NCBI RefSeq assembly: GCF_000317085.1
Contig: NC_019702.1
Location: forward strand, 2,200,394-2,264,393
DNA from: Synechococcus sp. PCC 7502
GTDB lineage: Bacteria; Cyanobacteriota; Cyanobacteriia; Pseudanabaenales; Pseudanabaenaceae
Direction of reading: 5' to 3'
Length of the DNA: 64,000 nt
The notes below the pieces were generated by a model that searched no databases, had not been told where the DNA came from, and saw only the letters and a program-made list of their open reading frames with translations. Every line of letters starts with the position of its first letter. Position 1 is the first letter of the stretch. The position numbers and the translations under genes are program-made. This document shows, one piece after another, positions 16,624 through 19,802 of the stretch.

Positions 16624-17013
16624 ATGCTTTTAACCGTTTGTGATGAATCAATTTCAGGCGAGAAGACTAATCGCAAGACTATTACTTTAGCGATCGCTCT
16701 GTGTACAGCCGCAGATATACTACGGGAAAGAGTGCGGCAAGAGGTTGAGTTATTTAATAACCAGCAAGAATCTGAGTTTCAAGGACTAGTGCAACCTGAA
16801 GATTCTCTGCGATCGCCTAGGGGCTATAAACTAAAAACCAAACGTATTATTAACTGGGAAGAACAGTACGAAAAAGCGATCGCTGCTTTTAATAAAAATG
16901 CCTTTCTGATGTTGGTGAATAATAAGCAAATTGTTAGCTTGGATGAAGAACTTGAAATTTCCGAAGATATGGAGATAAGCTTTATGCGTTTAACTCCCTT
17001 GGTTGGTGGATAG
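16624..17013 (+). CDS. Ubiquitin-like (beta-grasp) protein with C-terminal Gly-Gly
   Basis: A 129-aa protein whose ends fit a ubiquitin/MoaD/ThiS-type beta-grasp fold. Residues 1-11 (MLLTVCDESIS) and 18-26 form a hairpin, 29-46 (AADILRERVRQEVELFN) an amphipathic helix, 93-104 (AFLMLVNNKQIV) a strand, and 105-129 the LDEELEISEDMEISFMRLTP segment ending LVGG at the very C-terminus. A charged, probably flexible insertion spans ~47-90. The exposed diglycine is what adenylation by an E1/ThiF-like enzyme needs; no such enzyme, protease or MoaE/ThiG partner is in the window. The DUF4132 gene starts 38 bases downstream behind a strong ribosome-binding site, so the two are probably one unit. The fold assignment is by pattern and is not proven. 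Confidence 0.6.
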   Translation: MLLTVCDESISGEKTNRKTITLAIALCTAADILRERVRQEVELFNNQQESEFQGLVQPEDSLRSPRGYKLKTKRIINWEEQYEKAIAAFNKNAFLMLVNNKQIVSLDEELEISEDMEISFMRLTPLVGG

Positions 17014-17051
17014 CAATACAATAGGACATAGATTAAGAGGAGGGTAAATTT

Positions 17052-19802
17052 GTGATATTCGATTCTTTTGATTGGATGAAAGGTGAACCTAAACTGGTTG
17101 GAGTCGATGGTTATCCTATTTACGAAAGTGATCCTTATTACACACAACACCTATCTCTTGACGAAATTTTAACAGAGGCATTACTTCCAGAGTTTTGGTG
17201 GCAGAATGCTAATATTGGACTTGAGAGTTCGGTTACAACCATTTACTGTATATTTGATATTTCTGCTTGGCAAAGACTATCTCAAAGCAGGATTAAGATT
17301 ATTAGTGAAAAAGATACTTTTATTCTTAAAACTATTTTTGCCTGCTACTTAAGAGTTTGCTGGCTTAATAGGAATATATCTGGGATAGCGAATGAAGAAG
17401 ATAAACTGGATCGATACTTACAAGAATTAAAAGGCTTAAATTCATTATCAGAGCCAATTGACATAATAATCCCTACACTTGTTGATATGAGTCAAATTTT
17501 TTTGAATGAAGGGATTAAAGCCAACCCAAGAAATAAATATCTTCAGGTATTGTATGGAATTTCAGAGAATCTAGTCCTTGAAATTACAAGTTTATCCAAT
17601 TCAGAAGTTATTGATTTAATTGACGTTTATACAAAAGGAATATTTCTGCATAGCTCTCATAGCTTGAGTAAGTCCGTAAGCTCAAAAATCATGAATTTAA
17701 TTAATAAGCTAAAACCCTTTTCAGTGGAATTAGAAATTGCCTTACATAAAATTAAATCAGCAGCCATAATTCAAAATGATCATGATAATTACAAAAAGTG
17801 GACAACGTTTTTAGAAAAGGCATTAGAGGAATATACACTTTTGCCTGGTGATGTATGGAGCGATCGCCTATTACAAGACCTTGAACCTTTAGATAATGAT
17901 ACTAAAAAAGCTTGGCAGGAACTAATTCTCCATGCTGGCACAGCCGATAAATCTAAACCTACGGCAAAATGGAATAAAAAAGCGAAAGAGTTAATTACTG
18001 AAATTGGAGAAGAATCATTTGTCAATTATTGCTTAAAGTGGTTTCCATTAGTGGCTGAACCGAGAGAAGATAATGGCAAAGGCTTTTCTGATACTTCTCT
18101 ATATATCGATCTTGATCCAAAGGATGCTGTTCTTCTCTTGCATGATAAAAACTGTCTGCTTCTCAAAGGCTTAGTTTGGAGTTGTAGCAACTTGGAAGAT
18201 AATCGTCTGATTCCTGCATTTGGGGCATTAGCTGAAACCTGTTATCGAAAAATTCCGCAAATTGGGGCGCGATCGCAATTAGTGGGTAATGCTTGCATAT
18301 ATGCCCTAAGCGTTATGTCTGGCAGGGAGGCTATAACTCAGTTAGAGAAATTACAGGCAAAAATCAAATATAGTCAAGCAAAGAGCTTAATTCAAAAAGC
18401 ATTCGAGACGGCGGCGAAAAGACAAGGTATCACTAAAGAAGATTTATTAGAGCTTGCAGTTCCTAACTATGGACTCAATGAGAATGGTCTATTACGTCAA
18501 AGTTTTGGCTCTTTTACGGCGGAAGTGAAAATCCTCAGTTCCACCCGTGTGGATTTACAATGGTATAAACCCGATGGTAAGTTACAAAAATCCCTTCCTG
18601 CCGAAGTAAAAAATAATTACAGTAGCGAACTAAAAGCATTAAAACGTCATATCAGTGAAATTGAATCTCTGCTTAAAGTTCATCGCGATCGCCTTGAAAA
18701 TACCTATCTACAACCTCGCACTTGGAAATATACGGATTGGCAGGAACGTTTTAGCCATCATCCTCTCCTTGGATATTTAACAAATCGCCTAGTGTGGGAG
18801 TTTAGGAATGAAACCCACCAAGAAACTGGAATTTGGCATCAAAATCAAGTGGTAAATGCTCAAGGGCAAGCTTTAACTTGGCTAGAAACCACCGAAGAAG
18901 TAAATGTAGTTTTATGGCATCCGATCTTTGCCGACTCGACCTTGATTTCCAGTTGGCGAGATTGGCTAGAACAACATCAAATTTGCCAACCTTTCAAACA
19001 GGCATATCGAGAAATTTATCCCCTGACTGAAGCGGAAAGAACCACAAGGACTTACTCTAATCGCTTTGCTGCCCATATTCTGCGCCAACATCAAATGTAT
19101 CAACTCATGAAGCAAAAGGGTTGGCAATATAGCCTCCAAGGTGGGTTTGATGGAGCTAATAATGCGATCTTCCATTTACCACAGAGCAATTTACAAGCAG
19201 AATTTTATGTTGACCCCGCAGGTGAAGAGGTATCCGATGTCTATATTTATCTCTATGTGGCGAGCGATCGCGTCTGTTTTTACGATCAGCGATATACACC
19301 AATTCCCTTGGAAGATGTGCCAGCTTTGACATTCTCGGAAGTGATGCGAAATGTGGATTTATTTGTGGGCGTAGCAAGTATTGGTAACGATCCGAACTGG
19401 AGCGATCGCGGCGAAAATCTTCACAACTATGATAACTATTGGGAGCAATACTCCTTTGGCGAACTAGCTATGACCGCCCAACTAAGGCGTGAGGTAATTA
19501 CTCGATTATTACCAAAACTGAAAATCAGCGATCGCTGTAAGATTGATGATCGATTCCTGATTGTTGAAGGCAAAAGACGCACCTATAAAATCCATTTTGG
19601 TAGTGGCAATATCCTAATGGAGCCTAATAATTCCTATCTTTGTATTGTGGCAGGCTGGGATAAATCCTCAAATACAGATAGTCTATTTCTACCCTTTGAA
19701 GGTGACAATACCCTATCCCTTATTCTCAGCAAAGCTTTCCTCTTGGCTGATGATGACAAAATTAAGGATAGTTCCATTTTGAGTCAGATCGGTCGCCACT
19801 GA
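17052..19802 (+). CDS. Large DUF4132 (MolR/YehI-type) protein
   Basis: A 916-aa soluble protein. The N-terminal ~270 residues are helical and unlike anything I recognise. The middle (~390-480) contains LLKGLVWSCSNLEDNRLIPA and CYRKIPQIGARSQLVGNACIYAL, helical-repeat segments typical of DUF4132 proteins. Residues ~540-760 carry the DUF4132 domain (LLGYLTNRLVWEF, FADSTLISSWRDWLEQHQI, QPFKQAYREIYPLTEAE, RFAAHILRQHQMYQLMKQKGW). The C-terminal part includes MRNVDLFVGVASIGNDPNW and ends near IGRH. No WGR domain is visible. DUF4132 proteins accompany MoxR/VWA modules elsewhere (E. coli YehI/MolR), with unknown biochemistry. The GTG start at 17052 is set by AGGAGG at 17038-17043. Confidence 0.82.
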   Translation: MIFDSFDWMKGEPKLVGVDGYPIYESDPYYTQHLSLDEILTEALLPEFWWQNANIGLESSVTTIYCIFDISAWQRLSQSRIKIISEKDTFILKTIFACYLRVCWLNRNISGIANEEDKLDRYLQELKGLNSLSEPIDIIIPTLVDMSQIFLNEGIKANPRNKYLQVLYGISENLVLEITSLSNSEVIDLIDVYTKGIFLHSSHSLSKSVSSKIMNLINKLKPFSVELEIALHKIKSAAIIQNDHDNYKKWTTFLEKALEEYTLLPGDVWSDRLLQDLEPLDNDTKKAWQELILHAGTADKSKPTAKWNKKAKELITEIGEESFVNYCLKWFPLVAEPREDNGKGFSDTSLYIDLDPKDAVLLLHDKNCLLLKGLVWSCSNLEDNRLIPAFGALAETCYRKIPQIGARSQLVGNACIYALSVMSGREAITQLEKLQAKIKYSQAKSLIQKAFETAAKRQGITKEDLLELAVPNYGLNENGLLRQSFGSFTAEVKILSSTRVDLQWYKPDGKLQKSLPAEVKNNYSSELKALKRHISEIESLLKVHRDRLENTYLQPRTWKYTDWQERFSHHPLLGYLTNRLVWEFRNETHQETGIWHQNQVVNAQGQALTWLETTEEVNVVLWHPIFADSTLISSWRDWLEQHQICQPFKQAYREIYPLTEAERTTRTYSNRFAAHILRQHQMYQLMKQKGWQYSLQGGFDGANNAIFHLPQSNLQAEFYVDPAGEEVSDVYIYLYVASDRVCFYDQRYTPIPLEDVPALTFSEVMRNVDLFVGVASIGNDPNWSDRGENLHNYDNYWEQYSFGELAMTAQLRREVITRLLPKLKISDRCKIDDRFLIVEGKRRTYKIHFGSGNILMEPNNSYLCIVAGWDKSSNTDSLFLPFEGDNTLSLILSKAFLLADDDKIKDSSILSQIGRH

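Follow-up and report, generated by a model that had tools for sequence, protein, structure and literature searches.

A ubiquitin-like protein that usually ends in diglycine and a DUF4132-DUF7737 partner form a conserved gene pair that points to an undescribed two-part machine

The window analysed here is a stretch of 64,000 nucleotides from Synechococcus sp. PCC 7502, whose genome comprises 3.58 Mb in 3 contigs. Two genes lie head to tail on its forward strand (Table 1), separated by a spacer of 38 bases that carries an AGGAGG motif. A sequence-only reading had described them as a small protein ending in PLVGG followed by a DUF4132 protein, and both the coordinates and the Pfam search agree with this description. 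The match of the larger product to DUF4132 (PF13569) is strong (E=1e-46, 159.6 bits against a cut-off of 27), and a second domain, DUF7737 (PF24879), which that reading had not named, is found near its C-terminus (E=2e-40). The pair is flanked upstream by a PutA-like proline dehydrogenase gene and downstream by gun4 (Pfam) and a GuaA-like gene (by reading), none of which keeps its adjacency to the pair elsewhere.

Table 1. Features of the gene pair, in window coordinates
Feature	Coordinates	Strand	Basis or remark
Predicted ubiquitin-like beta-grasp protein, 129 aa, C-terminal PLVGG	16624..17013	+	No Pfam/NCBIfam family; AlphaFold2/Foldseek
Insertion particular to this family, placed between helix 1 and strand 3, residues ~48-90	16765..16893	+	Consensus FxGLVQPTDAExxLNGYxL..IDW.......AF
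C-terminal tail F-M-R-L-T-P-L-V-G-G	16981..17010	+	No variation at F, L, V, G, G in alignment A3
AGGAGG motif, ribosome-binding site for the DUF4132 gene	17037..17042 (approximate, within a few bases)	+	Read directly
DUF4132-DUF7737 protein, 916 aa, GTG start at 17052; helical-repeat N-terminal half, then alpha/beta part	17052..19802	+	
DUF4132 domain, residues 509-691	18576..19124	+	Pfam
DUF7737 domain, residues 809-913; co-occurs with the ubiquitin-like gene	19476..19790	+	Pfam
Cys864 codon; sole invariant Cys in partners of GG proteins, Ser/Asn in the non-GG clade	19641..19643	+	

Searches of Pfam and NCBIfam gave nothing credible for the 129-aa protein, and no family covers it. An AlphaFold2 model built from a nine-sequence input (pLDDT 78, pTM 0.66) shows a strand-hairpin, a helix, an insertion, a second helix and further strands, with low confidence for the final three residues. 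Among the top Foldseek matches in the PDB are MoaD, human MOCS2A, SUMO, NEDD8, ISG15, ubiquitin and bacterial multi-ubiquitin (9d5b, 8u38), each with a TM score to the target of about 0.45-0.59 and an E-value of 0.04-0.3, none below 0.03; transcobalamin domains are also among the matches. We predict a beta-grasp of the ubiquitin/MoaD type because the list as a whole is consistent, not because of any single E-value. The beta-grasp plan first read from the letters is thus borne out by the model and by a beta-grasp-dominated list. The insertion noticed at the same time is real as well, with residues ~48-77 forming its body and an extra helix at 78-90.

The resemblance to MoaD, ThiS and Urm1 (PF02597) lies in fold and ending. 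In these proteins, too, the last strand of a beta-grasp runs into a free V-x-G-G or V-G-G tail, and a MoeB/ThiF-type E1 acting in trans is plausible for the 129-aa protein. However, the PF02597 profile gives no match above cut-off (hhalign probability 9%), and the profile-profile alignment to MoaD/ThiS covers the last strand and tail only, that is, the last 22 columns. The protein further differs in its insertion of about 40 residues with the extra helix, in having a DUF4132-DUF7737 partner instead of MoaE or ThiG, and in lacking GG in one clade.

We surveyed the distribution of the pair at two scales. A sample of 386 genomes of the cyanobacterial phylum holds the small protein in 6 and DUF4132 in 9, and all 6 genomes with the small protein also have DUF4132 (p=1.9e-11). 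The genes are adjacent in 5 of the 6. In the sixth (G117; L026:5922-7619, L031), they are split between contigs: behind the ubiquitin-like gene, on contig 12, come a small ORF resembling a transposase and another of TnpB-type appearance, and an insertion element has probably split the pair. Homologues from the sister genus are 22-25% identical to the window protein, and all end in VGG; a gap of 1-4 bp separates each from the gene that follows, which encodes a DUF4132-type protein of about 1685 aa and is split in one genome. One further match (L022, in G163) was discarded as a chance fragment within a longer unrelated frame.

At the wider scale, a first scan of genome contigs with the single window protein as query gave no matches, and a second scan of 84,980 species with a VGG-containing pattern yielded 472 relatives. 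Among the best 80 of these 472 loci, a DUF4132 gene is adjacent on the same strand in 76 (small gene first in 73, reversed in 3), most often overlapping it or at a distance of up to about 50 bp. Of the four exceptions, one is a contig end and three (L067, L077, L085) look like stand-alone small genes. At sequence identities of 20-50%, the pairing recurs in ten or more phyla, the best 80 loci representing Cyanobacteriota, Bacteroidota, Planctomycetota, Actinomycetota, Acidobacteriota, Armatimonadota, Pseudomonadota, Nitrospirota, Omnitrophota and Chloroflexota. The small protein and the DUF4132-DUF7737 protein are paired far beyond chance, and the co-occurrence in other genomes on which the sequence-only reading had made its proposal depend was found. 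Because the pairing is so conserved in sequence data, the two products almost certainly work together.

The conserved unit ends with these two genes. Clustering of flanking genes (without Pfam labels, within 9 kb of the 80 loci) revealed no third component and only genus-level synteny beyond the pair. At the same 80 loci, no E1, E2, JAB or sulfur genes are conserved near the pair, and MoxR, vWA and FtsH do not recur beside the small protein; its neighbours in the window are PutA-like and gun4. PADLOC gave no match for the pair to anti-phage defence. The DUF4132 protein does match phrog_20839, but a phage origin was discarded, as tblastn of phage genomes returned nothing. In one Planctomycetota genome, a 196-aa homologue ending in VAGG (L261:1306-1896) has nucleotidyltransferase-like and TraB-like neighbours (by reading), and neither DUF4132 nor DUF7737 was detected in this genome as sampled.

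DUF4132 proteins at large are not the partner. The pairing proposed from sequence holds, but only for the subtype that bears DUF7737, whereas DUF4132 proteins of the MolR/YehI type lack the small gene. This distinction is clearest in 199 Planctomycetota genomes, 23 of which have DUF4132 and 11 of these an above-cut-off DUF7737. The small gene lies alongside in 10 of 10 assessable DUF7737 genomes (the eleventh is truncated at the end of its contig and left out) compared to 0 of 12 DUF4132 genomes without DUF7737 (p=1.5e-6, a statistic that ignores phylogeny). Two genomes (G420, G807) have an additional DUF4132 gene apiece, which has no DUF7737 and no adjacent small gene, and a weak DUF7737 match at L225 comes with no detected small gene. 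MolR/YehI-type proteins share the DUF4132 domain with the window protein and differ in having neither DUF7737 nor a ubiquitin-like neighbour, as seen in the E. coli control genome, which has no PF24879 match, and at L190, L195 and L015. The 916-aa protein has DUF7737 and no WGR domain, unlike MolR/YehI; the protein at L195 contains WGR and no DUF7737. At L015:5465-10902, in a genome of the same family (G033), a DUF4132 protein without DUF7737 or a ubiquitin-like gene is followed by a MoxR-like ATPase, and belongs to the other DUF4132 lineage. Long partners of 1670-1720 aa carry DUF5724 (PF18991) ahead of DUF4132-DUF7737 (L014:4341-9398, L213:2000-7021) and represent the same protein in longer form.

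The partner resembles no known enzyme. Residues 265-916 are modelled at pLDDT 88, and in Foldseek searches of the PDB and BFVD the N-terminal half retrieves only weak helical-repeat matches and the remainder nothing. No known fold was found for DUF4132-DUF7737 in either database at E<=0.001, and a sequence search of the PDB was also empty. Sequence and fold searches found no enzyme homology for DUF7737.

Next, we examined the tail. The 80 loci came from a pattern that requires VGG and the sampling of alignment A3 is partly tail-dependent, so the test of GG used the tail-free profiles A4 and A6. All ten Planctomycetota tails end in GG (tail-free profile, with G420 and G424 taken from a separate set), as do all ten cyanobacterial tails (profile including the tail; G042 has a degraded N-terminus and still ends in VGG). 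Bacteroidota are divided, with three loci ending in GG and three not (tail-free profile; the G423 locus was found separately). Following one Bacteroidota order through DUF7737, we found a non-GG end in every intact case: LAGSYW, LTGTYW, LSGSIW or LSGAYW. The expected conservation of the terminal GG thus stands for cyanobacteria and Planctomycetota and fails in one derived Bacteroidota clade, where the consensus L[AST]G[SAT][YI]W is itself conserved. By this comparison the VGG tail is near-universal but not absolute. In alignment A3, conservation of the preceding residues F-x-[RK]-L-x-P-L-V equals that of GG itself.

The change of tail is matched by a change in the partner. In an alignment of 84 DUF4132 proteins, Cys864 is the sole cysteine that reaches >=93% conservation among proteins paired with a GG tail. 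All 59 assessable partners of observed GG tails have it, and none of the nine partners of non-GG tails does (Ser in eight, Asn in one). With redundant loci included under a looser count, the first figure becomes 85 of 85. A Fisher p for this association ignores phylogeny and is no proof; the loss happened only once in evolution. In the model, Cys864 sits at the end of a predicted strand adjoining a low-confidence loop. The non-GG clade is nested among GG lineages in the tree, so GG with Cys is the ancestral state and both were lost in one clade. We note that about 7 other conserved positions are also altered in this clade (P624C, W635Y, T665E, D739E, P757N and others). As about 8 of 57 conserved positions change there, the change at Cys could be coincidence. 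Nonetheless, the matched loss, as read from these alignments, supports handling of the tail at Cys864. A DUF4132-DUF7737 protein at L202:34-5007 has Val at this position; the small gene was not found in that assembly, which was left out of the count, and the case may be a second, independent loss.

As for activation, the sequence-only reading had seen no E1 in the window. Indeed, the single ThiF-family gene above cut-off in the host genome lies far outside it (C3:546408), and the three canonical ThiS/MoaD genes of this genome are elsewhere too. All 16 genomes with the pair that we tested have a ThiF-family gene, and all 16 have a ThiS/MoaD gene. An E1 elsewhere in the genome permits activation of the small protein. 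Since nearly all genomes have ThiF and MoeB, finding them lends this weak support.

The two genes stay paired across at least ten phyla, and the ending of the small protein changes in step with one cysteine of its partner; together these observations point to an undescribed two-part protein machine. We propose that the small protein is a MoaD/ubiquitin-like beta-grasp whose flexible tail would dock on the DUF7737 end of the partner, and that in the ancestral GG form its terminal glycine would be handled at Cys864 by thiol chemistry (a thioester, or thiocarboxylate or persulfide transfer). A housekeeping E1 of the MoeB/ThiF type, with its gene elsewhere in the genome, would probably activate it first. 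In the derived Bacteroidota clade, GG and Cys would have been lost together, leaving a tail that now only docks. We hold this dedicated two-component machine tentatively, with a probability of roughly 0.45. Its parts differ in strength: docking of the tail on the DUF7737 end is likely, and the balance between covalent chemistry at Cys864 and pure docking is roughly even. The physical complex, the docking site, the thiol chemistry, the E1 in trans and any downstream substrate are all inferred.

The main rival to covalent roles is non-covalent docking. Here the beta-grasp protein would be a structural or regulatory subunit of the DUF4132-DUF7737 protein with its tail in a pocket, GG serving steric fit only. 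Three observations make this reading quite possible: activating or removing enzymes are not conserved alongside the two genes, an entire clade retains the pair with a strongly conserved tail devoid of GG, and the F-x-[RK]-L-x-P-L-V residues are conserved to the same degree as GG. Yet a free diglycine end in all other lineages, lost with the sole invariant Cys, exceeds what steric fit needs.

Rather unlikely, in our estimate, is a self-contained ubiquitin-like system in which DUF7737 would be a thiol transfer enzyme of new fold that receives the terminal glycine at Cys864 without E2 or JAB, the derived branch having lost GG and Cys. Roles in conjugation, sulfur transfer or signalling, already offered from the sequence, may be envisaged, and two of them are special cases of our preferred explanation. 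As a sulfur carrier, the protein would have its GG converted to a thiocarboxylate by MoeB/ThiF, and DUF4132-DUF7737 would be the sulfur-using enzyme, like MoaD/MoaE or ThiS/ThiG. In its favour, the best fold matches include MoaD and MOCS2A, the tail can be aligned to that of MoaD/ThiS, and an E1 is available in trans. In addition, the E. coli name MolR recalls molybdenum, and moeA (L013, L014, L016) or a mogA/moaB-like gene (L024:2387-2875) lies a few genes from the pair in several cyanobacteria. This proximity is probably coincidence: it is not repeated over the 80 loci, and we rejected a molybdenum-cofactor link on that basis. As the neighbourhoods share no conserved biosynthetic gene, canonical MoaD/ThiS are separately present in all 16 genomes and the partner is not sulfurtransferase-like, we judge a sulfur carrier distinctly unlikely.

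More improbable again is a reading in which DUF4132-DUF7737 would be the ligase or transfer enzyme that conjugates the small protein to cellular targets: a beta-grasp with a VGG end and an invariant partner Cys would suit it, but no E2, JAB or E1 gene is linked and the DUF7737 fold is unlike known enzymes. That the two genes are chance neighbours and the GG fortuitous has next to no probability, as the recurrence in ten phyla at 20-50% identity left this reading no support once the survey was done.

Known bacterial systems share elements with the two-component machine that we favour. Bacterial ubiquitin-like conjugation operons (Iyer 2006, PMC1779556; CBASS- and Bil-type; multi-ubiquitin) also have a GG-ended beta-grasp in a conserved gene cluster, but the DUF4132-DUF7737 module has no E1, E2 or JAB, a single beta-grasp domain and a partner of no known fold. 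The vWA-MoxR FtsH-ternary systems likewise tie a ubiquitin-like protein to poorly known bacterial machinery (Kaur 2020, PMC7159879). There it is accompanied by E1, E2, RING, JAB, vWA and MoxR and fused to EAD1 (PMC7159879), whereas none of these recurs beside the pair. We found no published description of the pairing, in agreement with the sequence-only reading; the search covered open-access literature, with subscription journals mostly outside it, and an earlier description is possible. Open-access papers on DUF4132 hold nothing on the pairing, and none was found on DUF5724 or DUF7737.

With the survey, DUF4132 and DUF7737, two domains of unknown function, and a small protein that hundreds of species carry without annotation become parts of a single defined module that can be tested. 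If the link between GG and Cys is chemical, it would be a new bacterial use of ubiquitin-like tails, with no E2 or removing peptidase alongside, and the GG-less Bacteroidota pairs are a natural built-in control. The pair is present in Streptomyces, Hymenobacter and Pedobacter, which makes genetics feasible. In two Bacteroidota genomes (L256, L258, L257/L260) the DUF4132 gene precedes the small gene; its frame is broken in one, and at L257 a 56-aa remnant is all that is left of the small gene.
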